DNA of 51,536 nucleotides from Pseudotamlana agarivorans (GTDB lineage Bacteria; Bacteroidota; Bacteroidia; Flavobacteriales; Flavobacteriaceae). Below the pieces are notes generated by a model. That model ran no database searches and was not told the origin of the DNA. It saw only the letters and a list, made by a program, of their open reading frames with translations. Below, one piece after another: positions 30,666-51,536 of this stretch. Within the stretch, counting starts at the first letter, position 1; every line of letters begins with the position of its first letter. Both the position numbers and the translations under genes were made by a program. Where the stretch lies: assembly GCF_001642835.1 (NCBI RefSeq), contig NZ_LXEI01000019.1:1-51536 (forward strand), in the 5' to 3' direction.

Positions 30666-30710
30666 TTATAATGAGGGGGTTATATAAGCAACTGAAATAT
30701 AGTTATTTAA

Positions 30711-31307
30711 TTATTTAGAAACCAGCTTAATAATTATATGTGAAAGTCTTCTTCTTTCACCTACAGTACCAGCAACATCACCTTCATTCATCCAGTTAGA
30801 CCATTCTGTTGGTGATTCACCATCATTAAACGGTTGTTCTGCAATACATTTAGCTTTAGTACATTCAAACTTTACTTTATAAATAACTTTGTAATTGGGT
30901 AAATTTCCTAATCTTATTTGAATAGCTTCCATTCTTTTACCTTCACCTTCAGTACCTGCTAATTGACCATCACGTACCCAAGGCATCCAACCTTTACTTT
31001 CTGAATGTGCCCTATACTCAATATACGCCCCTTTCGGTGCATTTTTAAGTCGAATTTTTATTCCCTCAATTCGCTTGGTATCACCATCTTCAACCCAAAA
31101 TTCTTGAACAACACCTTCACCTTCACTTACATTTCCGATAGCTTTTTTAACTTTCTTACTTTTACCAGCAAGCATACCACTACTAACCCACCCTTGTTTA
31201 TCCCCATCAGATTGAATATGTACAGTATATTCCAAAGAAACTTGTGCTTTGGAATTTAAAAACAATAAAAAACATAACAAAAACGAATAAACCTTAAATG
31301 ATTTCAT
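30711..31307 (-). CDS. secreted ChW-repeat protein at the prophage edge
   Basis: The 198-residue product has a clear signal peptide (residues 1-21, ending NSKAQ) and then about three copies of a ChW-like unit: QGWVSSGMLAGKSKK then GIKIRL, GWMPWVRDGQLAGTEGEGKR then IQIRL, and EWSNWMNEGDVAGTVGERRR then IIIKL. ChW repeats were first described in secreted clostridial proteins and are thought to mediate binding. It is the last prophage gene before comM, 104 bp past the tape-measure stop, with its own possible promoter (a TATCTTTA box about 56 bp upstream). A surface-conversion (moron) role is inferred. Confidence 0.75.
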   Translation of the reverse strand: MKSFKVYSFLLCFLLFLNSKAQVSLEYTVHIQSDGDKQGWVSSGMLAGKSKKVKKAIGNVSEGEGVVQEFWVEDGDTKRIEGIKIRLKNAPKGAYIEYRAHSESKGWMPWVRDGQLAGTEGEGKRMEAIQIRLGNLPNYKVIYKVKFECTKAKCIAEQPFNDGESPTEWSNWMNEGDVAGTVGERRRLSHIIIKLVSK

Positions 31308-31410
31308 AACTGTAAAGAATTAATTAATAAATATTTTTCATTAATTATTTCTTATGGGAGTTACTAAAGATACTAATTTAAAATCATAAACACCTCATTA
31401 TCAGTATATT

Positions 31411-33933
31411 TTAAAATATTGAATTAGTTTCAATCACGTTTACTCTATTATTTACGGTTGATATTTCTTCAACTGAAACAATTGGTGCTGGTAATGATTG
31501 ATTTGCAATAGCTATTTTTGTTGCTAAATCATCGGTATTAATTAAATTATTATTTGGAATATTAACCCTTCCAGCAATACCACCGTTTGCCATTAATGGT
31601 ACACCACCACCAGCTTGATTTAATTCAGATAATAATGGTAAAAACATTGAAGTACTTCTTCTATTAATAATTGCTTCACCATCTTCAGCTTCAATTGGAA
31701 TACCCCCTTGTGAATGTCTTGCACCTCTTAATAACATACCTCTTTCAGCTTTTTTAAGATTTGCACTTTCTCTTTTTGGTGGTTTAGTTGAAACTATTTT
31801 AGCTATGTTTACAGCACCAACCGCACCCACTAATGCACCAGTAGCAATACCAATAAGACCACCATCAGCCAATGCTTTAGTAACACCTTGAGCTGTATTA
31901 ATCGCAGCAGCAGCAACCGCAGCAGCTTTACCAGCAGCCGATTCTTTACCTAATAAATCAGAAATACCATTAAATACAGTACCAGCAGCAGCTAATTTTG
32001 AATTTTGTTTATCCTTTTCTAATTGTTCTTGATAATTAGCATACTTTTCATTTATTAATGAAATATCAGCACCACTTTGTTCAGCGTTTGCAACTTCTTG
32101 AAGTCTTTGTTGTTCTAATCTTTCAGCAGCTAAATCAAATTCATTTGTAAAACGTTCTTCATTTATTGCTAATTGATTTTCATAATCAATGGCTTCAGCT
32201 TCAATTTGGGCTTCTTTTCTTGCCTTTTGTACTTCTTCTTTTGCTTTATAATTATCATCATCAATTATTGCAATGGCATTATCATATTCAGTTTTATTTA
32301 TAACACCTTCTTCAAATTGAAGTTTAGCAAAATCCCTTTGTTTTTGTGCTAATGCATCTAAACGTTCTTGTTCAACTTTTAAAGATTCTTCACTAAAGAA
32401 TTTATCATTATCTAATTTTGAATAATTATTTCTTATATAATTATCTAATTCAATTTGTGCATTTGTAACCGCAGCATTTGCTTTAGCATCAGCTAATTCA
32501 TTTTGAATTTTTAAATATTCAGCATCAAATTTTGCTTGTGATATACTTTTAGTTGCTAATTCTTTTTGAAGTATGGCAACCCTTTTTTGTGCTACTTGTT
32601 CATCTATTGCTAATTGTTCTTCAAGGGTTTTTGCTCTTACACCTTGTGATTCAATATATTTTTCTAATTCATCATTCATTAAAGCAATAGCTTTTTCACT
32701 TGCTTCTTTTCTTAATGAATTTAGATTCACCAATTGTTCTGATTCTTGTCCAGTTATACGTTCTTGTATATCAGCAATATTTGTTAAAGCTTCAGCTTGT
32801 TCATCCAATGCTGTTTTTGTTGAACCTTCGGCTTTTATTCTTTCATTGGCAACTTGAAGTGCTAATTGTGCAATTGATAATTCATCAGATAATTGATTTT
32901 TTAAAACCTTACCTAATTCATCATTGGCTTTAATTCTTTCAGCCATTGATTTTGATTCATCATCACGAATTTGTCTAAGTTTTTCAGCATCTCTTTGATA
33001 TTCCAATTGAATCTTTTGTGCTTCTCTTTGTGCTTTGGTTAATTGTGCTTCAGCATCAGCCAATGCTTTTGCATCTTTAGCACCTTGTTGAACTTCTTTA
33101 TTAAAGTTTTTAATTGCATTGGCTTGCTTATCAAACCCTAATAAATCAAGTCCTGATGCAATAGTTGATAAACCAGCATAAATAGCTTTTTCAGCCAATT
33201 CAAACCCCTTTACAAGTCCATCAATTAGAAATTCACCTAATGGTTCAAGTATTTTTAATAATGTATTTGTGATACCTTGAAATGCACTAAAAGCTTTTTT
33301 AATTTTATTGGTTGAATCTTCGCTTCTATCCATCGCATTTTTAACCAATGCGAATGCACCAACCAACACCGCTAATAATGCACCTATTGGTGTTGCAATA
33401 AAAGATAATGATGCTTTAGTCATTGATTTAAAACCAGCAACAACACCACCTAAACCACCAGTTACTTTATCAAGTGCTTCAGGATAGTTACCAATATTTT
33501 GTTTTTGTTTTTCAAGTGAAGATGAATTTTCATTTATTTTACCATTGTTTTCATCCATCTTTTTATTGATGGTTTCGATGGCTTTTGCACCTTCATCAGT
33601 TGAAGCATTTAATTGATTACGTACTTTAACCAATTCAGCATTATTTGCTTTTGCTTCATCAACTGTTTTGATTTCTTTACTAAGTGCATCATTAAGTTTT
33701 TGATTTGCACCAGTTGTAGCTTGAAGTACTTTTACTTGTGAATTATATTCTTGTTTTAAGCTTTTTAAATCAGCTTCATTTTGTATAAAAGTTTTGCTGG
33801 TAGTTTCACCAGCATTTTTAAGTTCTTTTTGTGTTGCAGTTAAATCTTCAATACTTTTTTTAGTTGATTGAAGTGATGATAATAATTTTTTATTGTCAAT
33901 GTTTAATTCCGCAATTGCTATTTGTTGTGGCAT
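31411..33933 (-). CDS. tail tape-measure protein
   Basis: The 840-residue protein begins with about 150 residues of coiled coil (NKKLLSSLQSTKKSIEDL; INKKMDENNGKINENSSSLE), followed by a hydrophobic segment (FIATPIGALLAVLVGAFALV, residues about 178-197), and then a very long second coiled coil rich in Ala, Glu, Lys and Gln (about 280-640). Near the end are Gly/Ala-rich helices (AAGKAAAVAAAAINTAQG). This is the pattern of tape-measure proteins, which set tail length and help DNA cross the envelope. It lies downstream of the other tail genes. Confidence 0.9.
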   Translation of the reverse strand: MPQQIAIAELNIDNKKLLSSLQSTKKSIEDLTATQKELKNAGETTSKTFIQNEADLKSLKQEYNSQVKVLQATTGANQKLNDALSKEIKTVDEAKANNAELVKVRNQLNASTDEGAKAIETINKKMDENNGKINENSSSLEKQKQNIGNYPEALDKVTGGLGGVVAGFKSMTKASLSFIATPIGALLAVLVGAFALVKNAMDRSEDSTNKIKKAFSAFQGITNTLLKILEPLGEFLIDGLVKGFELAEKAIYAGLSTIASGLDLLGFDKQANAIKNFNKEVQQGAKDAKALADAEAQLTKAQREAQKIQLEYQRDAEKLRQIRDDESKSMAERIKANDELGKVLKNQLSDELSIAQLALQVANERIKAEGSTKTALDEQAEALTNIADIQERITGQESEQLVNLNSLRKEASEKAIALMNDELEKYIESQGVRAKTLEEQLAIDEQVAQKRVAILQKELATKSISQAKFDAEYLKIQNELADAKANAAVTNAQIELDNYIRNNYSKLDNDKFFSEESLKVEQERLDALAQKQRDFAKLQFEEGVINKTEYDNAIAIIDDDNYKAKEEVQKARKEAQIEAEAIDYENQLAINEERFTNEFDLAAERLEQQRLQEVANAEQSGADISLINEKYANYQEQLEKDKQNSKLAAAGTVFNGISDLLGKESAAGKAAAVAAAAINTAQGVTKALADGGLIGIATGALVGAVGAVNIAKIVSTKPPKRESANLKKAERGMLLRGARHSQGGIPIEAEDGEAIINRRSTSMFLPLLSELNQAGGGVPLMANGGIAGRVNIPNNNLINTDDLATKIAIANQSLPAPIVSVEEISTVNNRVNVIETNSIF

Positions 33934-33979
33934 TAGTCATAATATATTTGGTATTGTGGTTAATCTGTGTTAACCATTA

Positions 33980-35920: not shown

Positions 35921-35925
35921 TCATA

Positions 35926-37044: not shown

Positions 37045-37047
37045 TTC

Positions 37048-37515: not shown

Positions 37516-37915
37516 TATCACTTATGGTATAATTAACTATAACCCCCGAAAAATTATAATCGAGTGCATTTATTATTTCAATTGTTGACCAACTAACAAG
37601 GGTGAAATTTGTTTCACATTTCACATAATTTTTGATAATATCGGTTGAATCATTTATGATTGGTTTAATATAATTTTGATAATGTGTATCATAATCTTCA
37701 TCAATATCTGATGATTTAACCAACATAAATGAACCTGAATAATCAGTACTTTCAGCACCACCATAATCATCAAAATTGGTTAAGATTTTAATGGGGTCAA
37801 CCAATAAATGAACCTTTGTTAATTCATCTGAATCATATAGGTTTTGAAAGTCTTGTCTTGCATATTGGAAAATCCAGTCATTTACAATACTTATATTCTT
37901 AAAAATTTCATACAT
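37508..37915 (-). CDS. phage protein of the connector/tail region, unknown
   Basis: The 135-residue product has no recognised family. Its size, acidic character and position after the terminase and before the tail genes match the small head-tail joining proteins found here in other phages. It overlaps its downstream neighbour and is 6 bp after the upstream one. Confidence 0.45.
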   Translation of the reverse strand: MYEIFKNISIVNDWIFQYARQDFQNLYDSDELTKVHLLVDPIKILTNFDDYGGAESTDYSGSFMLVKSSDIDEDYDTHYQNYIKPIINDSTDIIKNYVKCETNFTLVSWSTIEIINALDYNFSGVIVNYTISDNE

Positions 37916-37921
37916 TTTATT

Positions 37922-38461: not shown

Positions 38462-39637
38462 TTAGCTTAACCATCTTAATGTGTTGTAATTATTATTTCT
38501 TGTAGATAATCTATCCATTGCAAAATATCTTACTGCATCTAATAAGTGATTATGCTTATCAATTGGTGTATTTAATTTTTCACCATTATTATCTTTTTCC
38601 CACGTATAATTGTTTAATTCAGATATTAAATTCTCACTTCTTTTAGTTACAAATAGGTTATATTCCTGAACGATTGAAATACCATCTAAAATTGAACCAG
38701 CACCTTTTTTAACAGCTTTTGCTGGTATGCTGTTATTTCTTAATTCAGCAATAATTTCAGGTCTTGCTGAATCGCAAACAATTATATTTTGTGTTAATTC
38801 TGAATCACTTTTTATATGATTCACAATTTGATTATTTAACAATCCACTTTTGTAAAGTGATTCATCAAGAATTAAATCATTTATACCTCTTTGATAGATT
38901 TTTACTAATGCGTTCGGGTCGTTAAAACCAAAATCTAAACCAGCACCTATATATTTACAATCGGCTGGTATATCATCAATTAATTGATAATTATATATAG
39001 TTCCATCAACTTGACCTTCTTCACCATAAACATATACAGCTACAAAGTTTTTCCAATAACTTGAACCATTTTCAGCTTTTTTAATAGCTTCTTTATATTC
39101 TTGAATTACATTCTTTGATAAATATTCATTGTCTTTATATGTGAGTTTAACAAAGTTGGATTTATCATCCTTTATATATTCCCTTATCCAAGATAAATGT
39201 GATGGATTGTAATCAAGAAAAATGAACTGTTTGGTTCTTATTGAAAGTTGTGTGAAGGCTTCACGATTTATATTATTTGCTTCATTTACAAATAAAACAT
39301 CCCTTCTTGCACCCCTAAGTTTACCACCATCTTCAACACCAAACCATTCAATTGTACAACCGTTTAATTTATAGCTGTTATTGGTCTTGTTATGGTGTTT
39401 TTCATCATAAAGATTATTTGCAATTAGTATATCAATTAAATCTTTTGCAGCACCCCTTCTTAAATGTGGAAATGATTCACTTACAATTGATATTGTTAAA
39501 GGGGTTTTTGATTTGGTACATAAAATAATAAGGTATTGAAGAATTGAATAAGTTTTACTTGAACCACCAGCACCTTGAATTATTCTAGTTCTTGCTTTTA
39601 TTTTTGTAATCTTTTTAAAGGCTGTGGTTAATTTCAC
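38462..39637 (-). CDS. terminase large subunit (PBSX-like)
   Basis: The 391-residue DNA-packaging motor has an ATPase with Walker A GAGGSSKT (22-29), the adenine/coupling region SIVSESFPHLRRG, Walker B DVLFVNEA (113-120), and a C-terminal RNase-H-like nuclease with its acidic residues in GAGLDFGFND, IIVCDSARPEI and NHLLDAVRYF. Length and motif order fit the PBSX/phage-terminase-3 family. Translation begins at a GTG that overlaps the small-subunit stop codon (GTGA). It is placed between the lysozyme and the tail genes and not ahead of the portal, which is unusual. Confidence 0.93.
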   Translation of the reverse strand: MKLTTAFKKITKIKARTRIIQGAGGSSKTYSILQYLIILCTKSKTPLTISIVSESFPHLRRGAAKDLIDILIANNLYDEKHHNKTNNSYKLNGCTIEWFGVEDGGKLRGARRDVLFVNEANNINREAFTQLSIRTKQFIFLDYNPSHLSWIREYIKDDKSNFVKLTYKDNEYLSKNVIQEYKEAIKKAENGSSYWKNFVAVYVYGEEGQVDGTIYNYQLIDDIPADCKYIGAGLDFGFNDPNALVKIYQRGINDLILDESLYKSGLLNNQIVNHIKSDSELTQNIIVCDSARPEIIAELRNNSIPAKAVKKGAGSILDGISIVQEYNLFVTKRSENLISELNNYTWEKDNNGEKLNTPIDKHNHLLDAVRYFAMDRLSTRNNNYNTLRWLS

Positions 39638-40196: not shown

Positions 40197-40667
40197 TTAT
40201 TTTGTTGGTGTACTGTAAAGAAAAAATTCTTCATTCCTTCTTTTGGTTAACCCTTTTAGCACCACTTTTTTATTATTTACCGTTCCTTTATTCCATCTTT
40301 TGAATTGGTATTCAATAGCATCAAAATCATTTGGGTTATTATTGATTTTTTTTAATAGTGTGCTTCTTTTAAAGTTATATACACCAACGTTATAAGTAAA
40401 TGAAACAAGTGATGAAAATTGATTTTCATTTATATCACTTGTTACATATTCATTTACTTTATCTTCAAAAGTTTTGATAATATTTTCAAATAGTTCATCA
40501 CCTCTTTTACGTGTGATTGGTTCATCGTTTAAGGTAACTTTTGAACCATCTTCATAATAGGTATTACCCCATCCTATTGTTGGAATCCCTGAAGGGCATA
40601 AATAAGGGTGATTTCTGAAGGATTCATATTTGTGAATTAGTTTTATACCAGTTTTTGTTGTTTTCAA
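40197..40667 (-). CDS. phage lysozyme, GH24 (T4-type)
   Basis: The 156-residue endolysin cleaves the peptidoglycan glycan backbone. The catalytic Glu15 is in HKYESFR, the substrate cleft motif PTIGWGNT follows at residues 29-36, and the C-terminal GLTKRRNEE is typical. It has no signal peptide, so a holin should release it; the small membrane protein at 43154-43534 is a candidate. It lies between the SGNH tail protein and the terminase genes. Confidence 0.92.
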   Translation of the reverse strand: MKTTKTGIKLIHKYESFRNHPYLCPSGIPTIGWGNTYYEDGSKVTLNDEPITRKRGDELFENIIKTFEDKVNEYVTSDINENQFSSLVSFTYNVGVYNFKRSTLLKKINNNPNDFDAIEYQFKRWNKGTVNNKKVVLKGLTKRRNEEFFLYSTPTK

Positions 40668-40700: not shown

Positions 40701-43124
40701 TTAAACTATTAGGTTTCTCAAAGTACCTACTACAATACCAGCAAATCTTTTAGCACCATAATCAGAAGGATGCGTATAATCATATAAAAAATCACCAATA
40801 TTATTTGTTGTCCAATTTATTTTTTCTTGAATATCAGCAACTAATAAATTTCTATATTCGGCTACATCTCTATATACTTCACCCCATCCAACATTTCTAA
40901 TAGCATTAACAGTTCTATGAGGTGGTGTCACTAGAATTATTATAGCTGCGGGATGATTTGTTTCTATATAATCAATAGCATAGTTTAATATACCTTGTGG
41001 CGTGCTTCTATCCCTACTTGTTACATCTCCATAAGGCAACGAAATACTTTGATTTGTACCACCTGCAATTGTTATTACTGTAGCATCCGATGGTATATTA
41101 GCAAGATTTGCATCATTAAGATTATTTACTGGTTGTGAACCCCAAACACCTAAGTTTGTATAGGACATACCGAAATAATCACTCACATAATCTATATAAT
41201 CTTTACCGTGAGAACCGTCACCATTTGTGATTGAGTCACCAAAACATACTATTCTATTATTTTGTAGCAATAGACTGGTAAGTCTTTCAGAAGTTTTAGC
41301 GTTAAGCGCATAATCAGAAATATTAAAATACCTATCAGTAAAGTCAATTTTCTGAACTAAATCATAGAATTCTTCTAATGAAAATTTATTAAAAAAGGTG
41401 TTCTCTACCCAACAAGAATGACTGCTAACTACTTTAAACTTAGCCCCAGAATCAAACCATCTAATCCCCGCAGTCGAATAAATACCTTGAAATAAAATAA
41501 AGGTGTATTTCTCACCAACCGTTGTAAATAAGTGGTCTAAATCATCGTTATCAATTTGAGGTCCATTTGTTTCTACTAAAACATCTGTAGAGCCTCCAGT
41601 TAATTCTGTTAATTCAATTTCCACTGTTGTTAAGAAATTGGAGAAAGTATTTTGTTTTGGTGTTAAAGGCAGAAATGCAAAAGCACCAACAGAATCTGTA
41701 TTTAGTGAAAGTATTGTATCACCATTTTCTTCTGTTACTACTGAATTTCCGTTAAAAGGAACTATTTCAGAATCATTATAATAGTCTCTAAATCTAGTAT
41801 AAAAAGTATCTCTTTTTAATTTATCAATTTCTTCATCTATGGTAATACTTGATTCTATAATTAAAAATGGGTCAGTTGGGTCACCATTAATATGATGACT
41901 AGCTACGATGAAAGCTACATCAGTATCATTTTTATCAATTTCTAAATTGTAAATAGTATCCTTTTCTGAAGATGCTAAAAGAGTTTTTATATAAGTTTTG
42001 TTTTCATCGAATAGACCAATACACCCCACAACAGAAACTCCATAACCTTTATAACTAATTTTATCACCCGCTTTTGCTGGTAAAAACCCAGTACCTAAAT
42101 AAGTACCAATTGGTGTTGAACCATCTGTTCTAAAATGTTCTTTTTGTTTTCCTAAATCAAAATAATTCTCTCTGTTAATTCGTCTTTCAGAACTAATAAA
42201 TAAACTTTTATTGTAGTCATCGTTTGATTGAATTTCTATAAAGTCACAACTACTAGGGGTTTTAGTTGCAAATCTCACAAAGTAAACCCAGTCAGGTACA
42301 ATTTCATTGTATGTTAAAACATAATTATTATCATTAACACTTACCATTAATGGAGCGTGAACCGATTTATCTTTAGAATATCCATATATAACAGGTTCAG
42401 TTACGAATGAGCCAAAACCTCTAAACTTTAAACGTGTTACGGATGGCACAACCTCATAAAATTCATCTGTATAAAATGAAAATCCGCCACCTAGATTAGT
42501 GATACTTCCATCATCGCGTAATATACCATCAATCCAAGTCGCATCTGCTTTTACATCTACACCATTACCACTATTTTCATTTCCTTTATTAATTATTGTA
42601 TCTTCAAAGAAAGTAACCGCTTTACCAGTTACACCTTTGCTAGTATTACTTTCATCAATGGTATTTTCATATAAATCAGCGTTTTTAATCCAGCTTGAAC
42701 CATTATAACCATAATATCCATTATTTGAATCAGTACTATCATTTGCAACTATCGCTGAATCATTTAAAGTGTTACCAGTTGATGCATTTAAATCACTTAA
42801 TGTTTGATAGGTTTTTATTGAATTAATATTAATTGAATCAATACTATCTTGTAAATCATCAATTTGGGCTGATACAGAACTAGGTAAAACAAAATCAAAA
42901 ACTAAATTTAATAACGCTTCAACCGTATCTTCTTGATTGGTATATGTAACACCATCAATAATAAATTCATCATATGGTGTACCACTTATTAATTGTTGCT
43001 TTGTATCATTTACATTATATATTCCAATTGCATTATCACCTTGCTTTAATGGTTGGTATATTTTCGCATATTGCACACCATTTATTTCAAAATGTTTATC
43101 GTTAATATTATTTATTACAATCAT
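40701..43124 (-). CDS. tail-fibre/spike protein with C-terminal SGNH hydrolase domain
   Basis: The 807-residue protein has an N-terminal virion-binding part (residues 1-150, with a short coiled coil IDDLQDSIDSI near 105), two beta-sandwich-like middle regions, and a C-terminal SGNH/GDSL esterase domain. In that domain the nucleophile block is FGDSIT (Ser about 631), the Gly/Asn block AGGTNQ is near 688, and the catalytic pair DYTHP (Asp about 782, His about 785) is near the end. It probably removes acyl groups from a host surface glycan during adsorption. Deacetylase activity is an inference from the fold. Confidence 0.82.
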   Translation of the reverse strand: MIVINNINDKHFEINGVQYAKIYQPLKQGDNAIGIYNVNDTKQQLISGTPYDEFIIDGVTYTNQEDTVEALLNLVFDFVLPSSVSAQIDDLQDSIDSININSIKTYQTLSDLNASTGNTLNDSAIVANDSTDSNNGYYGYNGSSWIKNADLYENTIDESNTSKGVTGKAVTFFEDTIINKGNENSGNGVDVKADATWIDGILRDDGSITNLGGGFSFYTDEFYEVVPSVTRLKFRGFGSFVTEPVIYGYSKDKSVHAPLMVSVNDNNYVLTYNEIVPDWVYFVRFATKTPSSCDFIEIQSNDDYNKSLFISSERRINRENYFDLGKQKEHFRTDGSTPIGTYLGTGFLPAKAGDKISYKGYGVSVVGCIGLFDENKTYIKTLLASSEKDTIYNLEIDKNDTDVAFIVASHHINGDPTDPFLIIESSITIDEEIDKLKRDTFYTRFRDYYNDSEIVPFNGNSVVTEENGDTILSLNTDSVGAFAFLPLTPKQNTFSNFLTTVEIELTELTGGSTDVLVETNGPQIDNDDLDHLFTTVGEKYTFILFQGIYSTAGIRWFDSGAKFKVVSSHSCWVENTFFNKFSLEEFYDLVQKIDFTDRYFNISDYALNAKTSERLTSLLLQNNRIVCFGDSITNGDGSHGKDYIDYVSDYFGMSYTNLGVWGSQPVNNLNDANLANIPSDATVITIAGGTNQSISLPYGDVTSRDRSTPQGILNYAIDYIETNHPAAIIILVTPPHRTVNAIRNVGWGEVYRDVAEYRNLLVADIQEKINWTTNNIGDFLYDYTHPSDYGAKRFAGIVVGTLRNLIV

Positions 43125-43562: not shown

Positions 43563-44075
43563 TTATTTTATCACAGTAAATCTTTGTGAATTGGTATTTA
43601 TATTTGGATTATTCCCGCTTGAATATCTAGGAAATAATGAAGATTTTGATTTCAGATATTTATCAATCATTTCAAACTTAATTGAAGCATCAATAACCGT
43701 TTGTTTGCTTATATCCTTCAATAGATTTCTATCTACTGGTGTTGAATCTTGTGAAAACTTTGTCACCGCACCAAATGGTGTTAAATTGGTGTTTACTGAA
43801 TACACATATCTTGAATAAGTATAATCTGATAGTAATGATTTTATACCCTCTTGATAATAATTTGAACCATTACAAGTAAAGGTTGAACCACTTAATAAAT
43901 CTTGATAATCTTGATTATTTAAGTTTTCGATTAAATCAAAATAGAAATCATTTAATACATCATATAAATCAACTGATTGTGCTAATTTTATACATTCGTT
44001 TATTTTATCAGTATCAATTTTTTTACCTACATCACGATATGTTGCAAATTCATTTGCTGTTATTATATTATTCAT
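43563..44075 (-). CDS. head-tail connector protein (DUF6712-like)
   Basis: The 170-residue protein starts at the ATG at 44075, overlapping the portal stop by 8 bp; an upstream in-frame start at 44096 would overlap more and adds no conserved residues. The opening NNIITANEFATYRDVGKKID and the helical layout resemble small connector proteins of Bacteroidetes phages. Position straight after the portal supports a head-completion role. Confidence 0.55.
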   Translation of the reverse strand: MNNIITANEFATYRDVGKKIDTDKINECIKLAQSVDLYDVLNDFYFDLIENLNNQDYQDLLSGSTFTCNGSNYYQEGIKSLLSDYTYSRYVYSVNTNLTPFGAVTKFSQDSTPVDRNLLKDISKQTVIDASIKFEMIDKYLKSKSSLFPRYSSGNNPNINTNSQRFTVIK

Positions 44076-45192
44076 TTTCCGTTGGTATATTATCACTTGT
44101 TATTTGCTCAAATGGGTTGATTATTTTTAAATCAGCTTCAATTGGTTTAGTGAATTTCCCCATCAAATTTTGAAACACTTCTTCAATCATATCACGTTCT
44201 TCTTCTTTGCTCTCAAATAGCTGTTTTTTAGCTTCTTTAAGCATTTCACCACTATTACCAAACATTCCATTATCTGATGGATTTACAAGCATTAAAGGCA
44301 CTCCAAATGCTTTACAAATGTTCTTTTCAGCTTGTTCATCAGAATATTTGAATAATTCATCATCATAGGCACTTGTTAAATCTTCTAACTTGATTTGTTT
44401 ATCCAAATCATCGCTCATATTTGATGATTCCAGTAGTAAAATATTACCACTATTTTCAGCACCTTGAAGTTCTTTTAATTTATTTCTGAACGCTCTTCTA
44501 TCATCGTCATTTGAAAAAGGTTGTACTACAACAAGTTTTGTATTTTGGAATCCCTTTTCAGCACCATTACTTCTAAATATTTGTGAATTATTTTCTAATA
44601 ATGCTTCATTTAAAACTGGGTTAAGGTCTGTTAATGAATAGATTGCATTTGAATCTTTTTGTATATGAAGAATTTGACCTTTATAATTTCTAATTCCACC
44701 AGCATTTTCAATTTGGCTTTCAATTACTGTTTTATTGGAATTAAAACGGTTATATATTTTGAATGATTCAGCTTTAGGTTTGTTTTCCCAATCAGCGATA
44801 ATATATTTACCACTATAACCTAAATCATCTTGTTTACCTATTCTAACTTGTGTGAATGGTATTACTTTAATTGAAGTGATTTCAAATAATAAGTTATAAC
44901 TAACGGCTATGTATAAATTATTATGTTTTGCATATTCCCTTGAAGCAATTCTTAGAACTTCATTAAGGGTTTGACCATCTTTATTAATTGTGATTTTACC
45001 TAATTCACCAAATGATTTACCATAAATAGCTTTAGCAACTTTATCAACACACGTTTTTGAAGTAACTGATATATTAATTAATGTTTCAATTAATTGTGGG
45101 AATAAATTATCATTACCAGCCGTATATATATCATTTCTTTTGTCAAGTTTAACCGATAAAATATTATGTTTTATTTCATTATATAATTTCAT
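44068..45192 (-). CDS. phage portal protein
   Basis: The 374-residue protein shows the portal plan: an N-terminal clip/wing region, the stretch SLTDLNPVLNEALLENNSQI where many portals carry a PLxxA-type helix, and a C-terminal DEQAEKNICKAFGVPLMLVNPSD, the conserved FGVPPxLL-like portal motif. It forms the dodecameric DNA gate of the head. It is shorter than most portals (about 400-500 residues). It follows the capsid genes. Confidence 0.85.
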   Translation of the reverse strand: MKLYNEIKHNILSVKLDKRNDIYTAGNDNLFPQLIETLINISVTSKTCVDKVAKAIYGKSFGELGKITINKDGQTLNEVLRIASREYAKHNNLYIAVSYNLLFEITSIKVIPFTQVRIGKQDDLGYSGKYIIADWENKPKAESFKIYNRFNSNKTVIESQIENAGGIRNYKGQILHIQKDSNAIYSLTDLNPVLNEALLENNSQIFRSNGAEKGFQNTKLVVVQPFSNDDDRRAFRNKLKELQGAENSGNILLLESSNMSDDLDKQIKLEDLTSAYDDELFKYSDEQAEKNICKAFGVPLMLVNPSDNGMFGNSGEMLKEAKKQLFESKEEERDMIEEVFQNLMGKFTKPIEADLKIINPFEQITSDNIPTENE

Positions 45193-45201
45193 TTAAGGTT
45201 C

Positions 45202-45735: not shown

Positions 45736-45766
45736 TTATTATTATTGTTTATGTTAATCTTATTTA

Positions 45767-46345
45767 TTATGCTTCAGCAAATAAAGCATCATAACTAGCT
45801 TTACTAGTTGCATAATCACTTTCTAAGAAAGTCATATATGGGTATTGTTCAACAGCACCTTCTTCAGTACTTAATGTGAAGACTAAACCAGCACTATTTT
45901 CATTTGTGTTATGTGTCATTTCTGATAATCTTAGACCGTTTTCATATCCGTAAATCTTGAATTCATCTAAACCATCAAGACCAGCATATTTGGTTCTTAC
46001 AACCATCACAAATAAGCCATCTTTGATTTCTTTTGCACGTTCCGCATTTTCGGTTGAATTGGTTGATAATCTTGAAGCAAATGAAGCCGTAAAGCCATCA
46101 ATATCTTCACTATTTGGAGCGTAAACCGCACCAGCACTACCTAATTCTTTGAACCATTCTAATTTATAACCAGTTTTACCACTAGCAAGTGTTAAAGCTG
46201 ATACAGTTGCACCACTAGCAGTTGTATTTGAAAAATCAATATCATCATAGTTGATAATTACGGCACTACTACCTTTTAGACCTTTTTTAGGTGCATCATC
46301 ACAACTTTGAAGTATATCATCAGTTAATTTATTATTACAAGCCAT
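45767..46345 (-). CDS. phage structural protein, possibly tail tube or head decoration
   Basis: The 192-residue protein is Ala/Ser/Thr-rich and looks like a beta-sandwich structural subunit (SAVIINYDDIDFSNTT; VVRTKYAGLDGLDEFKIYG; GLVFTLSTEEGAVEQ). It lies 75 bp downstream of the major capsid gene. Major tail proteins and head decoration proteins both occupy this place in other phages; I cannot choose between them. Confidence 0.5.
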   Translation of the reverse strand: MACNNKLTDDILQSCDDAPKKGLKGSSAVIINYDDIDFSNTTASGATVSALTLASGKTGYKLEWFKELGSAGAVYAPNSEDIDGFTASFASRLSTNSTENAERAKEIKDGLFVMVVRTKYAGLDGLDEFKIYGYENGLRLSEMTHNTNENSAGLVFTLSTEEGAVEQYPYMTFLESDYATSKASYDALFAEA

Positions 46346-46420
46346 TTTTTAATTTATATTTTCTTTTATATGGGGGTGAATTGCTTCACCCCATATATTT
46401 ATTATTTTGAAGTTGTGTTA

Positions 46421-47338
46421 TTACACAGTTAATGTGAATTCAACAATTTCATCAGCATTAGAGATTTGAACACCAGCTTTACCTTTAGTTCTTAACATTA
46501 CTTTGTCTAATGTTTTATCATAAAATGCTTCAATTGTTTCAGTTTCAGAAATTACATCTGAACCTACTATGAAGTTTGAACCTACTGATGCAAACATTCT
46601 TGAAGTACCGTCTAAACCATAAACTCTGATTAGTTTACCGTGTCCACCACCGATTTCATATACACCATTATCGTGTTCTGGTTTGTAGTGATATAAATTA
46701 TCAGATTTTTCTTTTGAGATGTACATATCAAATACATCATCACCAACTAAGGTTACATAGTCTTTACTTCTTTTTACTTTTGCTGGTGCTGCAATTCTCA
46801 TATCTTCAACAAGACCTTTTACATTGTCTTTTGTGATTGCAGTCGCACCTGAAGTATTACCATCTATTACATTTGAATCAGCATCAATTAATTTGATGAA
46901 ACCATCAAATAATTGGTAAGTACTACCACTAGCAGTATTACCTTGCCAATAAGTCATTTCTAAAGTTTCAGCAATTGAAGCTACTTTAGTGTTAACAATT
47001 TCTTCTTCAAATGGTAAATCATCACCATTGTTAGAACCCGGTGCTAATACCGTATTAGGTAATTTTGTTTGTAAATCATCTGAACAAAATGATTCAAATA
47101 CCGTGAAAGGCTTCACAGTTAATACAACCTCATTGATAACCGCATCACCTGAAGGTGTTGCACAGTTACCTGATTGTAATGTAGCTGCACCACTTACGTG
47201 TGGTACAGATGTTGAACCTTTTACATTCGCCATATATAATGCGAATTTCCCAGTGTCACCACCAGTGAATAAGGTCTTTGTTAATGCTTTATTTTCTCTT
47301 GAAATAAAGTCTGAAAAGTTTGATACATCGTATGCCAT
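46421..47338 (-). CDS. major capsid protein
   Basis: The 305-residue protein follows the protease/scaffold gene by 24 bp, the classic HK97-type order. It has the composition and length of a mature-type capsid subunit, with a P-domain-like segment VPHVSGAATLQSGNC, GDAVINEVVLTVKPFTVFES and a C-terminal IEAFYDKTLDKVMLRTKGKAGVQI. No sheath or baseplate motif is found. The identification depends on context and general fold. Confidence 0.75.
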   Translation of the reverse strand: MAYDVSNFSDFISRENKALTKTLFTGGDTGKFALYMANVKGSTSVPHVSGAATLQSGNCATPSGDAVINEVVLTVKPFTVFESFCSDDLQTKLPNTVLAPGSNNGDDLPFEEEIVNTKVASIAETLEMTYWQGNTASGSTYQLFDGFIKLIDADSNVIDGNTSGATAITKDNVKGLVEDMRIAAPAKVKRSKDYVTLVGDDVFDMYISKEKSDNLYHYKPEHDNGVYEIGGGHGKLIRVYGLDGTSRMFASVGSNFIVGSDVISETETIEAFYDKTLDKVMLRTKGKAGVQISNADEIVEFTLTV

Positions 47339-47362
47339 TTTAAATTAATATTTAACTCTCTT

Positions 47363-48640
47363 TTAGCCTCTTAAGTAATTTGAAGCTTTATTATTATTTG
47401 TATTGTTTATTTGTAATTGAGCATTAACAGTAGCTTCTTCACTACCAATAAGTTTTTTTAATGCTTTGATTTCTTCTACTTGATTATCATTAGCAGCTTT
47501 TAATTCCGCTAACATTTTTAAGATTTCAGAATTTTCAACTTCTTCAGTTGGTTCTTCAGTTGGTTCTTCAGTTGGTTCAGTTGATTCAGCTTCTTTGATA
47601 AATCTGATTACACCATCACTATCAACTAATATTTTTCTACCATCAGCTAATTCATATTCACCAGCAGTTACAGCTTTTGGTGCTTCACCTTCTTTTGATG
47701 GCTTATATTCAACCACATCACCGATTTCAAAAGTTTCATTTACAACTGATACTTCCCATTTGCTGATTTCACTTATTTCAGCAGCAACCGCTTCAGCTTC
47801 AACTTCTTCTTCGGTTTCTTCTTCAACTTCTTCTTCAGTTTCTTCAGCTTCTTTGATTTCCACTAATTCACCAGCTTCAAAAATCCAAGTTGAACCATCG
47901 GTTTGAACTCTTTCACCTTCAATTGGTTTACCATCTTCATCAATCGCTTTATCACCCACAATTGGTTGTGCATCTTCAGCGATTTCAGGAAAATTGATTA
48001 TATCACCATTAGCATCAGCGATTTCAAGATTTACAATTGAATCATCTGAATCATCTGTGAAAAATTCATTCAATGCTTTTATGAATTGTTTTGTTTTACT
48101 CATTTTTTTAAATTCTTTATTGTCATTATTCAACATTGCAACCGCCTTTAGTTCAGCAACAACACCATTTGAAAATCCTAATGAAACCGCTTCTTCAGCG
48201 TTCATATATGTTTCATTTTTTAATAAATTTTGGATTGTTTCGGTGTCTATTGAAGTATGTGAACTATAAAAATCTGATAAGTGTTTTTCGATTTCTCTAA
48301 GCTCTTTTGCAGCCTTTTCAAGTGTAGATGCTTCACCTTGTACTGTATTCCACGGCAAATGAATCATTATGTCACCATTTTCTTCAATTAACCTTGTATC
48401 ACCAGCCATATAAATGTAACTAGCGATGGAATAAGCTTTTTTTGCTACCGTAGTAACTGGTATTTCAAGATTCTTTAAATATTGATATATATCTTTTCCA
48501 ACAGTTACATAACCACCAATGGAATCAATTTTAACTTCACATTCCGTTGGATTATCAAAACTTTTGTACTGTCTGATTACATCGATTAGATTAGTATCTT
48601 CACCTATTACACCACTTATGTATATAATTGCTTTGTTCAT
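47363..48640 (-). CDS. ClpP-like prohead protease fused to scaffold-like region
   Basis: The 425-residue protein has an N-terminal ClpP-type serine protease (1-165): IDSIGGYVTVG, nucleophile Ser71 in KKAYSIASYIYMAGD, His94 in IMIHLPW, and an acidic residue (Glu143) before YMNAEEAVSLGF. Residues 185-400 form a very acidic, low-complexity linker (Glu runs, three EEPT repeats) around small beta units (GEYELADGRKILVDSDGVI). The C-terminal 60 residues are a coiled coil (LAELKAANDNQVEEIKAL), as in scaffolds. One polypeptide would thus serve as scaffold and be self-removed during head maturation. Confidence 0.85.
   Translation of the reverse strand: MNKAIIYISGVIGEDTNLIDVIRQYKSFDNPTECEVKIDSIGGYVTVGKDIYQYLKNLEIPVTTVAKKAYSIASYIYMAGDTRLIEENGDIMIHLPWNTVQGEASTLEKAAKELREIEKHLSDFYSSHTSIDTETIQNLLKNETYMNAEEAVSLGFSNGVVAELKAVAMLNNDNKEFKKMSKTKQFIKALNEFFTDDSDDSIVNLEIADANGDIINFPEIAEDAQPIVGDKAIDEDGKPIEGERVQTDGSTWIFEAGELVEIKEAEETEEEVEEETEEEVEAEAVAAEISEISKWEVSVVNETFEIGDVVEYKPSKEGEAPKAVTAGEYELADGRKILVDSDGVIRFIKEAESTEPTEEPTEEPTEEVENSEILKMLAELKAANDNQVEEIKALKKLIGSEEATVNAQLQINNTNNNKASNYLRG
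47543..47578. repeat. 3 x 12-bp tandem repeat inside the protease/scaffold gene
   Basis: TTCAGTTGGTTC occurs three times in a row and encodes the EEPT repeats of the linker. Copy number could vary by slippage without breaking the frame. Confidence 0.85.
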
Positions 48641-48681
48641 ATACTGTTATATGAACCAAATGGTGGGTATTTTTCCGTTTT

Positions 48682-48699
48682 ACAACGTCCGAATGTTGT
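48682..48699. promoter_or_regulatory. 18-bp near-palindrome upstream of the late (head) operon
   Basis: ACAACGTCCGAATGTTGT has 5 perfectly paired outer bases on each side and only two irregular inner positions. It lies about 42-60 bp upstream of the protease start, between a terminator and the gene, where an operator for the late operon would be placed. No matching TAnnTTTG box was found, so late transcription may use a phage-specific signal. Confidence 0.4.
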
Positions 48700-48703
48700 A
48701 TAA

Positions 48704-48739
48704 ACAAAAAAACCACCCTTGTGAGGTGGTTAAAAAAAA
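48704..48739 (-). terminator. terminator downstream of the nuclease-like gene
   Basis: AACCACC and GGTGGTT (48711-48717 and 48725-48731) form a stem with a 7-nt loop. On the minus strand it is followed by a run of T, 32 bp past the stop of the nuclease-like gene. It separates that unit from the late operon. Confidence 0.8.
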
Positions 48740-48770
48740 TTAATTATGTCACTAATTAATCAGATAAATG

Positions 48771-49244
48771 TTAGTTGATAGCTTGTTGTGGGTCTATGTA
48801 AAATACTGGCTTAAACTCATACGTATTATTACCATTTGAAGCTGTATGTTTTGGACAATTTTCAAATTTTATTGCATCCATTTTGGTATGATTTAAATCA
48901 AATAATAAATCTTTATCTGTATATCTGACCAAATAAAATGCTCTTATATCCTTATTGATGTTCTTTTCCTTATTCTTGCATTTTGAAACAATATCAATTA
49001 AACTTTTATACTTATCAAGTTGAATTAAACACCCACCAGCATAATAATCTGAAGTAACATTTCTTGTCTTGACTTCACATATACCATTTATTTTAAATGG
49101 GGTGTTTGTGTTACCACTTATGAATGTAAAATCAAATTTTGAAAAACCTTCATTATATATTTTTTCAATTTCAATTTCTTTATTGGTTTGGCAAAAACCA
49201 GTTATTGTTTCTGTTTCTTTGTTTATATAATCATTAAAATTCAT
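48771..49244 (-). CDS. PD-(D/E)XK nuclease-like phage protein
   Basis: The 157-residue protein has the spacing of a PD-(D/E)XK fold: Glu in the first helix (KEIEIEKIYNEGF), Asp in KFDFTFISG, ExK in NGICEVKTRN, and a following helix with GCLIQLDKYKSL, where Gln and Tyr often complete the site. It may be a Holliday-junction resolvase or restriction-like endonuclease. It is transcribed alone between a promoter-like element (49281-49308) and the terminator at 48704-48739. Confidence 0.6.
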   Translation of the reverse strand: MNFNDYINKETETITGFCQTNKEIEIEKIYNEGFSKFDFTFISGNTNTPFKINGICEVKTRNVTSDYYAGGCLIQLDKYKSLIDIVSKCKNKEKNINKDIRAFYLVRYTDKDLLFDLNHTKMDAIKFENCPKHTASNGNNTYEFKPVFYIDPQQAIN

Positions 49245-49280
49245 TTGTAAAATTGGTTAATACTATCTTTATATATTTAT

Positions 49281-49308
49281 AAATAGTATCGAATAATAAA
49301 AAGTTCAA
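49281..49308 (-). promoter_or_regulatory. 28-nt phage promoter-like element, copy 2
   Basis: On the minus strand it reads TTGAACTTTT then ATTATTCG then ATACTATTT. It matches the copy at 51107-51134 at 25 of 28 positions with the same length. TTG and TACTATTT are 17 bp apart, close to the host -33/-7 spacing, and the nuclease-like gene starts about 37 bp downstream. It also abuts the ATG of the oppositely oriented membrane-protein gene. Confidence 0.55.
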
Positions 49309-49311
49309 AAA

Positions 49312-49797
49312 ATGAAGAAAAAAAATGAAATAAAATATCAAGAATGGTCTGAACATCTAACAAGTACTAAAGAAAAATCAGATTATTCTTTAAAAAGAAT
49401 GGATTTACTTATAATAACTATAAGTGGTGGTGGTCTTTACGTTTTATTTGAAACTTTAAGAGAATTTAAAACGGGGAATATTTTAATAGAAAATACTAAT
49501 CTATTGTTTTGTACTGGACTTTTTTTACTCCTAACTATTCTTTTAAATTTTGGCTCACAACTAAGTGGATATTATGCAAACAATTATGAAGAAAAATATA
49601 TTATCATTGAACTTAAATTACTAGAGGGTGAAAATTTGAATAAAAAAGATAAAACTGAATTGAAAAATGAACAAAATGGATATGACAAATCCCAAAATTG
49701 TTATAATAACATTACTCATATATTAAACAATGCATCAATTCTAACAATGATGATAGGATTAGGACTACTAAGTTATTTTAGTTATTCTATTTTTTAG
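49312..49797 (+). CDS. three-helix membrane protein, possible moron
   Basis: The 161-residue product has three predicted transmembrane helices: DLLIITISGGGLYVLFETL (about 31-49), NLLFCTGLFLLLTILLNF (about 63-80) and ILTMMIGLGLLSYFSYSIF at the end. A charged cytoplasmic loop of about 45 residues separates helices 2 and 3. No family is recognised. It is the only right-facing gene in the visible prophage and has possible promoter elements of its own (TTGG at 49253, TATATTTA near 49271). Such isolated genes often alter the lysogen, for example by excluding other phages; that is inference. Confidence 0.6.
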   Translation: MKKKNEIKYQEWSEHLTSTKEKSDYSLKRMDLLIITISGGGLYVLFETLREFKTGNILIENTNLLFCTGLFLLLTILLNFGSQLSGYYANNYEEKYIIIELKLLEGENLNKKDKTELKNEQNGYDKSQNCYNNITHILNNASILTMMIGLGLLSYFSYSIF

Positions 49798-49948
49798 GTC
49801 TAGTACCTGTTTTTAAACCTTTAGTATTTTCAGCACCCCTTCTTTCAGTATAACCTAAATTAATTGGTTTTTCTTGATTAGAATTTGAACTATTGTTTGA
49901 ACCACTATTATTTGATGAATTATTACCGTTCTTATTTTTATCACACAT
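49787..49948 (-). CDS. small Asn/Ser-rich phage protein (53 aa)
   Basis: A short frame begins ATGTGTGATAAAAATAAG and ends TAG at 49787. It encodes an N-terminal Asn/Ser-rich flexible stretch (residues 5-24) followed by a conserved-looking tail, PINLGYTERRGAENTKGLKT, with basic residues at the end. It uses the codon style of the neighbouring phage genes. Its 3' end overlaps that of the right-facing membrane gene by 11 bp. No family is recognised. Confidence 0.5.
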   Translation of the reverse strand: MCDKNKNGNNSSNNSGSNNSSNSNQEKPINLGYTERRGAENTKGLKTGTRPKK

Positions 49949-50032
49949 ATTTCTAATTTTGTATAAAAATACTAGTTTTTTAAACCATCATAAGTCAATT
50001 TACCTTTATTCTTATCAACACATTGTTAACTC

Positions 50033-50344
50033 TCAAATTTCTTCAATAAATGTTTTTTCAAGGTATTTTTTAATTTGAATAACATTACTGGTATCAAATG
50101 TTTTATCAAAAATGACTAGCATTTCAATTGAAATAATAGCACATTCATAAAAAGTTCTGTTATCCTTATATTCTTCAATTTCTATATTTACAATCACATC
50201 ATCCAAATCATCATAATAACTTAATAAATCACCCTTTATTTGGTTTTCAATATTGGTTGATGTTACACCATTCTTAAATAATTTAATACCTTTTAAAACG
50301 CCTGAAATGGCTATCATTCTATTCTGTAATTCTGTTATTTTCAT
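50033..50344 (-). CDS. unknown small phage protein
   Basis: The 103-residue acidic protein (helix, then strands VIVNIEIEEYKDNRTFYECAIISIEMLVIF) shows no known motif. It starts within the stop of the preceding gene (4-bp overlap), so it is the third gene of the sigma-like operon. Confidence 0.5.
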   Translation of the reverse strand: MKITELQNRMIAISGVLKGIKLFKNGVTSTNIENQIKGDLLSYYDDLDDVIVNIEIEEYKDNRTFYECAIISIEMLVIFDKTFDTSNVIQIKKYLEKTFIEEI

Positions 50345-50574
50345 CTTGCATTTTTATTAAGTCTTGTTATTATTCGTTGAATCGAATTAGGGTGCATATT
50401 GTTTTCTTTTGATAAAATATTATAACGTTCACCCTTAGTTCCTGATAGGGAATAAAATCTGTCATAAATTGCAATATGTTGTATAATGGTTGAATCAACA
50501 ATCACTTTATTACGAATCAATTTTATTATTGTTGTTAAATTATTTTTGTCATTTACTAATTGATATAATGTCAT
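50341..50574 (-). CDS. small HTH-type phage protein
   Basis: The 77-residue product ends in ERYNILSKENNMHPNSIQRIITRLNK, which has the helix-turn-helix pattern of a DNA-binding or sigma-region-4-like module. Its ATG follows the sigma-like stop codon directly. It could work with the sigma-like protein as a split second domain. That pairing is inference; the HTH is a by-eye call. Confidence 0.5.
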   Translation of the reverse strand: MTLYQLVNDKNNLTTIIKLIRNKVIVDSTIIQHIAIYDRFYSLSGTKGERYNILSKENNMHPNSIQRIITRLNKNAR

Positions 50575-51057
50575 TTATTTTTTAAGAATTTTATAAATCG
50601 TTTTTTCATTTTGAATCAAATGAAATGGTTGATATACCTTTATTATATTTTTTACAGAAACACCATCTTCATAATATTTTTTTTGAATAAATTTTTCAAT
50701 TTGTGTTAACTGTTTGGAATGCTGATTTAAATAATCTTTAGTCTCAATTTCATTTGCTAAATCAGTTGAAGATTCTAACAAATCAATCTTACGTGTTTCT
50801 TCACCATCACTATCAACTATATGTTCATCAAGTGATTCTTTATTTAGTTGATTTTTGATTACAAAATGTTTGCAATGAAAATAAAGATGCTGAAAAGCAA
50901 ATGTTTGAAAAGTACCTTTTGAAGGATTAAATTTATTTTTGATTTCAAATAATTTGATATAACATTCGTTGAATAAATCATTTCTAAATTGTTTATCAAA
51001 ACGGTTGATGATTAGGTGTATAAGTGGTTGATAATCATTTATATTTATTTCGTTCAC
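50575..51057 (-). CDS. phage RNA polymerase sigma-factor-like protein
   Basis: The 160-residue protein has a sigma-70 region-2-like segment at residues about 25-62: DLFNECYIKLFEIKNKFNPSKGTFQTFAF, with the pattern of xLxxExxxxLxxxxxKFDPxKGxFxTFAx, then basic/aromatic residues (HLYFHCKHFVIKN). After an acidic linker comes a C-terminal HTH-like part (YYEDGVSVKNIIKVYQP...KTIYKILKK) as in region 4. Translation begins at GTG. It heads a three-gene operon behind the 28-nt promoter-like element and an 18-bp palindrome, so it is a strong candidate to switch on other phage genes. Confidence 0.65.
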   Translation of the reverse strand: MNEININDYQPLIHLIINRFDKQFRNDLFNECYIKLFEIKNKFNPSKGTFQTFAFQHLYFHCKHFVIKNQLNKESLDEHIVDSDGEETRKIDLLESSTDLANEIETKDYLNQHSKQLTQIEKFIQKKYYEDGVSVKNIIKVYQPFHLIQNEKTIYKILKK

Positions 51058-51077
51058 TATTCATATATTTTCTTTGT

Positions 51078-51095
51078 GGTGATGTTTACATCACC
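51078..51095. promoter_or_regulatory. perfect palindrome, likely operator of the sigma-like operon
   Basis: GGTGATGT and ACATCACC form a perfect dyad around TT. It is between the promoter-like element at 51107-51134 and the start codon at 51057, i.e. near the expected transcript start. A phage repressor or the phage regulator itself could bind here. Confidence 0.55.
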
Positions 51096-51106
51096 TTATT
51101 TATAAT

Positions 51107-51134
51107 AAATAGTATGGAATATTGAAAAGTTCAA
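51107..51134 (-). promoter_or_regulatory. 28-nt phage promoter-like element, copy 1
   Basis: On the minus strand TTGAACTTTT, then CAATATTCC, then ATACTATTT. It lies 50-77 bp upstream of the sigma-like gene and matches the element at 49281-49308 at 25 of 28 positions. Confidence 0.55.
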
Positions 51135-51155
51135 TATTTATTAAAAAAAAATTGA

Positions 51156-51179
51156 AAATAATTTCAATTGAAGATTTTT
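51156..51179 (+). repeat. 24-bp direct repeat, left copy
   Basis: AAATAATTTCAATTGAAG followed by ATTTTT. An identical copy lies at 51381-51404. Each holds the small palindrome TTCAATTGAA. The two copies flank the iteron array. Confidence 0.85.
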
Positions 51180-51208
51180 GAAGTTAGAATTTGAAGTGTT
51201 TTTAGTGA

Positions 51209-51291
51209 TACCGTATTAGATACGGGTAAGTACCTTACTAAATACGGGTAAGTACCGTATTAGATACGGGTAAGTACCTTACTAGATAAGG
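51209..51291 (+). repeat. 22-bp iteron array (four units)
   Basis: Units start at 51209, 51231, 51253 and 51275, exactly 22 bp apart; the fourth is cut after 17 bp. Units 1 and 3 are identical, with core CCGTATTAGATACGG (arms CCGTAT/ATACGG). Unit 2 has CTTACTAAATACGG and unit 4 CCTTACTAGATAAGG, the latter again a dyad. Units are joined by GTAAGTA. Spacing of two helical turns and the A/T-rich DNA that follows are typical of replication iterons or multi-site operators. Confidence 0.85.
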
Positions 51292-51301
51292 TTTATAACT
51301 A

Positions 51302-51338
51302 ACAAGAAGCTAACAAAAAGAAAACAAGAAGCTAACAA
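51302..51338 (+). repeat. 15-bp direct repeat pair, 22-bp period
   Basis: ACAAGAAGCTAACAA occurs at 51302-51316 and 51324-51338, again 22 bp apart and directly downstream of the iterons. Confidence 0.8.
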
Positions 51339-51340
51339 TA

Positions 51341-51536
51341 CGTTAGTATTAATATATACTACGTAGTATAGGGATTTTTTAAATAATTTCAATTGAAGAT
51401 TTTTAAAAATATAGATGTTAACCAGGTTAACTTTTATAAAACCTTTCTTCTATTAATATATATTACATATAGTATATAATAATAAATATAATAAGTAATA
51501 ATAAATATAATATATAACTGCGTTAGTATTAATGTA
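51341..51536. repeat. palindrome and A/T-rich repeat zone
   Basis: TATACTACGTAGTATA (51355-51370) is a perfect 16-bp palindrome. CGTTAGTATTAAT occurs at 51341-51353 and again at 51521-51533. A right copy of the 24-bp repeat lies at 51381-51404. The rest is almost pure A/T and would melt easily. No gene is seen between 51058 and the right edge. Confidence 0.75.

Follow-up and report, generated by a model that had tools for sequence, protein, structure and literature searches.

Near Absence of GATC and CATG from a Temperate Phage Lineage of Flavobacteriaceae

Two Words Missing from a Prophage

The window analyzed here, a stretch of 51,536 nucleotides of Pseudotamlana agarivorans (contig NZ_LXEI01000019.1, called C10 below), carries at positions 30666–51536, where the contig stops, the late genes of a tailed, temperate phage, and this part of the prophage contains neither GATC nor CATG. 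The absence of the two words is exact, has persisted over large divergence, and recurs in related phages from several host genera. We propose that purifying selection has purged GATC and CATG (and GGCC) almost entirely from a lineage of temperate Flavobacteriaceae phages to which the prophage belongs. The best explanation for this selection, and in our judgment a likely one, is avoidance of Type II restriction enzymes met in other Flavobacteriaceae.

Word counts are given below as observed/expected, the expectation being that of a maximal-order Markov model (from trinucleotides). At positions 30666–51536, GATC and CATG were expected 54.0 and 49.5 times, respectively, and both counts are zero (z = −8.7 and −8.3), as the original prediction, made from the sequence alone, had claimed. 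It also held that the host DNA to the left is rich in both words, which is correct: positions 1–30665 contain 62 GATC (88.9 expected) and 99 CATG (98.9 expected), and each of six 5-kb host segments has at least 6 GATC and at least 11 CATG. The longest stretch lacking both words runs from 30341 to the end of the window. Among 200 simulations at each order, the lowest GATC counts were 26 (order 1) and 32 (order 2), and the lowest CATG counts were 56 and 30. The remainder of the prophage, on contig C7 (108605–116905; see below), adds no GATC and one CATG, at 115699, so that the extension of the count to this part, which had been proposed at the outset, upheld the absence of GATC and found one exception for CATG. 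Over the whole prophage (29,172 bases on the two contigs) GATC stands at 0/78 and CATG at 1/76, both below an observed/expected ratio of 0.1, the threshold for near-elimination, although our Markov ratio may differ from the exact statistic used in the 2018 survey of phages discussed below. Neither unrelated palindromes nor the host share this depletion equally. In the whole prophage, GTAC (63/59), TGCA (90/94), AGCT (102/119), ACGT (50/53), and CTAG (36/37) are near expectation, CCGG (1/14) and GGCC (0/5) being low as well; in a host sample, GATC is mildly depleted (84/141) and CATG hardly so (129/144). The only CATG of the prophage forms the exact center of a perfect 22-base palindrome (C7:115690–115711, about 691–712 of locus L067), which lies within a coding frame, 1.2 kb off the contig end.

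Exactness and Persistence of the Selection

Relatives were drawn from viral contigs and bacterial genomes with the portal protein (44068–45192, minus strand; PHROG 11226, E = 1e−79) as a query. Close relatives, with portal proteins 55–80% identical, are phages of Mariniflexile gromovii (21 kb examined), Tenacibaculum soleae (30 kb), and Cochleicola gelatinilyticus (32 kb) and the viral contig G061 (30 kb); in the sequence examined of each, both GATC and CATG are absent. Together with the prophage studied here these are the five most depleted phages. When they are pooled, GATC (0/411), CATG (1/360), and GGCC (2/26), all palindromes, are the three lowest of the 136 strand-merged tetramers, among those with more than 20 expected occurrences, the next lowest being CAGG at 0.52. 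Under a rougher expectation, GGWCC (2/45) and CCWGG (6/50) look avoided and GANTC (370/320) does not. Low CCGG is seen among the five only here and in T. soleae (0/6).

The depletion is specific to the words: neither composition nor reading frame accounts for it, and palindromes in general do not share it. When synonymous codons were shuffled 300 times in frames 100 codons long or longer, the 29 such frames of this prophage gave on average 47.4 GATC and 23.9 CATG, versus 0 and 1 observed; across the five phages, the shuffles predict 29–71 GATC and 19–27 CATG per phage, and the depletion goes beyond this null in all five. Codon choice depends on the next base in the way that had been noticed from the sequence. 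When the next base is C, Asp in this phage is never GAT and 17 times GAC (500 GAT and 38 GAC elsewhere), and when it is G, His is never CAT and 11 times CAC (65 and 18 elsewhere), versus 43 GAT and 19 GAC before C, and 33 CAT and 14 CAC before G, in the host genes of the window. The five phages together have 0 GAT and 90 GAC before C (2305 and 202 elsewhere) and 0 CAT and 49 CAC before G (271 and 116 elsewhere). The same holds across the preceding codon boundary: ATC is used for none of 324 Ile residues following a G-ending codon and for 451 of 3189 elsewhere, and Met follows a C-ending codon once in 463 cases, versus 926 in 9180 for four control codons.

We further counted site gains from one-step neighbors in 216 aligned pairs of orthologous genes, whose DNA differs by 26–44% depending on the phage pair. 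GATC was gained in none of 16,669 cases, CATG in one of 15,679, and GGCC in none of 2,630, versus 0.7–2.4% for GTAC, CTAG, TGCA, AGCT, TCGA, ACGT, and CCGG, and 3.3–5.0% for the four AT-only palindromes. The pairs share phages and are hence not independent, but the controls were counted alike and the contrast is large. Since site gains are missing at rates where controls acquire them readily, the selection is specific and goes on in separate lineages. These data strongly support a long, specific, and continuing selection against GATC and CATG, as originally predicted; the further proposal that restriction is its source stands as the best explanation.

Spread of the Avoidance among Related Phages

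Absence of GATC and CATG is a trait of the lineage. Beyond the five phages, the record G062 has no GATC and one CATG, and G065 has intermediate counts (GATC 9/47, CATG 17/39). GATC is absent and CATG kept in G066 (CATG 16/19) and L010 (17/23), and likewise in L100 (GATC 0/66, CATG 38/72). L102 is undepleted (GATC 15/14, CATG 13/11); L103, L104, L105, and L107 have 10–15 GATC apiece, L104 lacking both GGCC and CCGG. Cellulophaga phage phi46:1 (KC821611), whose portal is 38% identical, resembles the prophage in its loss of GATC (0/51) and GGCC (0/69) and differs from it in keeping CATG (41/47) and losing CCGG (0/82), that is, in its avoided set. GATC is undepleted in phages BV57P1, TCUEAP1, and phi13:1. 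Complete purging of a 4-bp word also concerns CCGG, in phi46:1 (KC821611.1, L083) and, at 0/78, in BV57P1 (OP172736.1, L084).

In a portal tree of 27 rows, with avoidance defined as a ratio below 0.1, GATC is avoided in 13 of 26 counted rows and CATG in 7 of 25, which takes no fewer than six and three changes of state, respectively. These change counts are rough, since 8 of the 24 inner forks are unresolved and long branches come together; they omit rows in which fewer than 10 sites were expected (L006 for GATC, L006 and L108 for CATG). Outside the tree are L101 (GATC 0/39, CATG 11/39), L106 (10/19, 10/18), G048 (37/66, 29/47), and the duplicates L002, L005, L009, L014, L136, and L137. The avoided set thus varies between relatives, which fits the expectation of an arms race.

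Restriction Enzymes in the Hosts

A search of the host for matching restriction or methylation genes had been proposed; none of the seven families searched was found there, and candidates occur elsewhere in Flavobacteriaceae. The genome of P. agarivorans has no match for PF00145, PF02086, PF01555, PF04556 (DpnII), PF05315 (ICEA), PF02976 (MutH/Sau3AI), or the protein alignment A2 described below, a screen that did not extend to Type I and IIG methylases, in which 12 of 20 first-look candidates were scored for A2, and in which the ICEA search, matching none of 14 control genomes, had no positive control. A host enzyme for the site, the operational test of the 2018 survey, is therefore not in evidence among these families, and the pressure would come from other hosts, from another enzyme family, or from the past. 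The named hosts of the relatives (G069, the Mariniflexile, G070, and G071) were searched individually for PF01555 and PF02086. For PF01555 there was no match in G069 and only weak ones, below the cut-off, in G070 and G071; for PF02086, G069 had a single weak match (23.5 bits) that passed the cut-off, G071 one that fell below it, and G070 none. The Cochleicola genome (G079), if drawn for the family-wide searches described next, is not among the DpnII, ICEA, A2, and MutH matches.

Among 249 genomes of the family, 13 encode candidate GATC cutters: DpnII is over the cut-off in four and MutH/Sau3AI-like proteins occur in nine. The latter match the MutH family in two stretches of one 379–481-codon frame (one with an internal stop), an arrangement that we take to be that of Sau3AI. 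A GATC methylase lacking its nuclease is described in a study of Flavobacterium psychrophilum (PMC11837570), indicating that GATC systems occur in Flavobacteriaceae.

For CATG, ICEA is over the cut-off in two of the 249 genomes, in one of them over a mere 29-residue stretch, and D12 methylases are found in 62. FatI, from Flavobacterium aquatile, cuts CATG; a literature search on it gave unrelated papers only. In genome G036 the ICEA gene adjoins a D12 methylase of the NlaIII-linked type, to which 16 further D12 methylases are 60–71% identical (alignment A3). At 15 of these 17 loci, the methylase is adjoined by a nameless protein of 203–228 amino acids (the 15-row alignment A2; e.g., L113:753–1439 and L128:1550–2161, both on the plus strand), which is present in 17 of the 249 genomes; at 11 loci, the pair is flanked by a relative of a DUF6427 gene on one side and of a DUF4254 gene on the other. 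The invariant residues D117, D126, and K128 of A2 form a D...FD-x-K pattern, presumably akin to the PD-(D/E)XK nuclease motif. The protein had no match in Pfam or NCBIfam (two members) or in PADLOC (one member), and the sole match among solved structures has an E-value of 0.15. When the 17 loci are pooled, none of 16 palindromes is as low as CATG (146/283), GGCC (0.60) and GATC (0.67) being low too; in four other host samples, the CATG ratio is 0.77–0.91. We regard A2 and its D12 methylase as a candidate CATG restriction system, with A2 as a candidate nuclease family.

A few pairings suggest that site counts of phages track the enzyme genes of their hosts. Genome G225 encodes both a MutH-like and an A2 protein, and its contig C121 carries a distant phage with GATC 1/36 and CATG 8/44; G193 does not appear among the genomes matched by these families, and its phage has GATC 129/141 and CATG 72/98. 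In G235, with a MutH-like gene, phage GATC is 16/50 and the neighboring DNA is likewise low. Phages in G395 (GATC 63/90, CATG 47/55) and G408 (26/43, 26/49) have hosts outside the enzyme-gene comparison.

Source of the Selection

When phage DNA is injected into a cell holding a matching Type II enzyme, a genome with sites would risk being cut, and one free of sites would pass. The agent would act chiefly outside the sequenced host, and the candidate enzymes of the sister genera would have GATC and CATG specificities. Enzymes of related bacteria probably recognize these words, and the phages could then probably slip past the defenses of many hosts. The phage appears to work like known cases of restriction avoidance, with other hosts as the likely source, a reading that lays no claim to the host-enzyme test of the survey. 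That survey (Rusinov et al. 2018; PMC6286503) tested sites of enzymes encoded by the host and finds compositional bias for GATC below 1 in 46 of 46 phages whose hosts encode the enzyme. The phages described there resemble this one in their specific loss of short Type II sites; the present case differs in that the phages are temperate, two words are nearly gone at the same time, and the enzymes were not found in the lysogenized host.

Several observations weigh against this explanation or narrow it. Restriction-site elimination, near-total elimination included, is reported as less frequent in temperate phages in the same survey. The lack of matches in the sequenced host has been noted, and for the candidate enzymes in related hosts (in 13 genomes of 249 for GATC, 17 for CATG) the specificities are drawn from homology. 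At least 3 of the 17 candidate CATG methylase loci are undepleted (L117, 17/17; L128, 13/13; L127, 14/15). G225, as one host with both systems, is anecdotal. In a 2.6-Mb genome of the same family, the DNA flanking a phage (G028:C1:1005000–1064999, L077–L079) has CATG 0/39, GATC 5/57, GGCC 2/45, and CTAG 7/59, and the phage is as depleted as its flanks, so that the agent there could be a genome-wide bias. A contig sample of the Mariniflexile host (G069:C14) is low in GATC (53/138), making a local GATC enzyme possible. Finally, CATG is totally absent only from the part of the prophage that lies in the window, and the single-strand words CTTA (84/153.5, z = −7.1) and AAGC (39/77.8, z = −6.7) are also low at 30666–51536, though far from absent.

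Low CTTA and AAGC, together with a G+C content of just 28% and skewed strands, might suggest that an AT-rich phage simply shows a bias in mutation or composition. We consider this extremely improbable: all the nulls (Markov, simulation, and codon shuffle) predict GATC by the dozen and no fewer than 11 CATG, GTAC and CTAG, made up of the same letters, occur as often as expected, and codons switch with the next base. These controls reject such a bias, barring a mutation process specific to both words. Avoidance of a process that reads GATC, such as methyl-directed mismatch repair, has a precedent in phiX174, which, according to PMC5014478, is devoid of GATC where about 20 would be expected and has its mutation rate lowered by added sites. 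The likeness stops there, phiX174 being a 5.4-kb coliphage whose loss is tied to mismatch repair; such a process leaves CATG, GGCC, and the low-looking GGWCC and CCWGG unexplained, and neither a Dam-type (PF02086) nor a MutH (PF02976) match exists in the P. agarivorans genome, which makes this reading highly unlikely here.

If the phage or a fellow element made an endonuclease that attacks the DNA of hosts or rivals at GATC and CATG, the phage would need to lack the sites to spare itself. This would account for an absence that is nearly total and lineage-wide, and the phage does carry an orphan adenine-methylase-like gene (C7:114236–115018, minus strand). No nuclease family, however, was seen among the early and uncharacterized genes scanned with Pfam and PADLOC, a set short of every gene; the methylase-like gene was not found in the T. 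soleae phage or in G061 (which may be incomplete), where there are no sites either; and G062, a record devoid of any early genes of the group, still has no GATC and a single CATG. We therefore rejected the methylase-like gene as the cause; the scans of uncharacterized genes, again not all genes, likewise gave no nuclease common to the phages, and self-protection of this kind seems very unlikely. A somewhat less remote reading, still improbable, is that restriction acts mainly within the present host or its near relatives, through a family of enzymes beyond those screened, rather than in other genera. Seven families made up the host screen, with methylases of Type I and IIG lying outside it, and host GATC is mildly low; against this, CATG is near normal in the host, and the survey (PMC6286503) saw no avoidance of Type I and IIG sites.

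The site-free state may serve as a clock. With all substitutions taken as equally likely, one unit of neutral divergence would add about 4,286 sites to the five phages together; they have one, so that the neutral divergence since the last purge would be about 2e−4 substitutions per base, assuming no selection during lysogeny. If selection does rest during lysogeny, integrated copies must be young or often mobilized: a site-free state quickly lost in permissive hosts implies that the prophages are recent or still moving. It is conceivable, and we put it forward tentatively, that the lineage is built for host-hopping, being invisible to common 4–5-bp Type II cutters (GATC, CATG, GGCC, probably GGWCC and CCWGG) and lysogenizing genera that lack the enzymes; a first GATC or CATG would then appear after about 1e−3 substitutions per base, marking a site-free prophage as recent or mobile.

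Restriction-site avoidance is itself established; what is unusual here is that it is so complete, that it concerns two words together, that the phage is temperate, and that the search for a matching enzyme in its host found none. A search of the openly accessible literature, which leaves out most subscription papers, gave no description of this lineage and none of temperate flavophages that have lost GATC and CATG together. Prophage site counts have been set against those of the host in a sea-ice metagenome study, which differs in that two prophages there have 180 and 144 GATC, for which it proposes regulatory roles (PMC12570018). A temperate lineage purged of two words where the enzymes were not found stands apart from a survey of hosts' own enzymes. 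From site counts one could read the frequency with which temperate phages move between genera and the time for which prophages stay put. The case also points to a candidate restriction system for CATG, present in 17 of the 249 genomes of the family.

Integration and Gene Content of the Prophage

The phage has the marks of a temperate one, a serine recombinase (C7:108665–110443) and insertion in a host gene. This gene, of the Mg-chelatase-like type (presumably comM), has its C-terminal part at 29955–30587 (minus strand; Pfam Mg_chelatase and Mg_chelatase_C) and its N-terminal part at C7:107756–108604; since the halves sit on C10 and C7, the prophage lies inside the gene. The C10 half is 83% identical to the Cochleicola counterpart, and the C7 half matched that counterpart only, at 75%; in Cochleicola the same gene is split by the prophage, with the halves on either side. 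The rest of the prophage probably lies at C7:108605–116905, joined to C10, because the gene order matches that of Mariniflexile (L011) and the host gene is split across both contigs; the two contigs have no 25-mer in common. A related serine recombinase is present in the T. soleae and Cochleicola prophages and was not seen in the examined parts of the Mariniflexile prophage and G061. C7 further carries a short tyrosine recombinase (112224–112763), a sigma-like gene (113514–114203), the methylase-like gene (motifs DLCAGIG and NPPF; MTS, weak Eco57I and N6_Mtase matches, and weak Type II methyltransferase matches), 89% and 78% identical to those of the Mariniflexile and Cochleicola prophages, and a gene related to HTH_36-domain genes of the relatives (115249–116049).

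The late-gene part (30666–51536) is identical to IMG/VR record G060 over 30711–51057. The genes identified in it, on the minus strand, encode a tail tape measure-like protein (31411–33933; PHROG virion structural and tape measure families), the terminase large subunit (38462–39637; PHROG 2, E = 2e−35), an endolysin (40197–40667; PHROG 7, E = 3e−49), a protein with a GDSL/SGNH hydrolase domain (40701–43124; Pfam Lipase_GDSL_2) whose place suggests a tail role, a major head protein-like product (46421–47338; weak PHROG head-protein matches), a head maturation protease (47363–48640; PHROG 94, E = 7e−35), and a sigma factor-like regulator (50575–51057; PHROG 351, E = 8e−9). Next to the attachment end, a gene with clostridial hydrophobic W (ChW) repeats (30711–31307, minus strand; E = 7e−29), for which comparison with the other phages gave no relative, is possibly a cargo gene of the lysogen.

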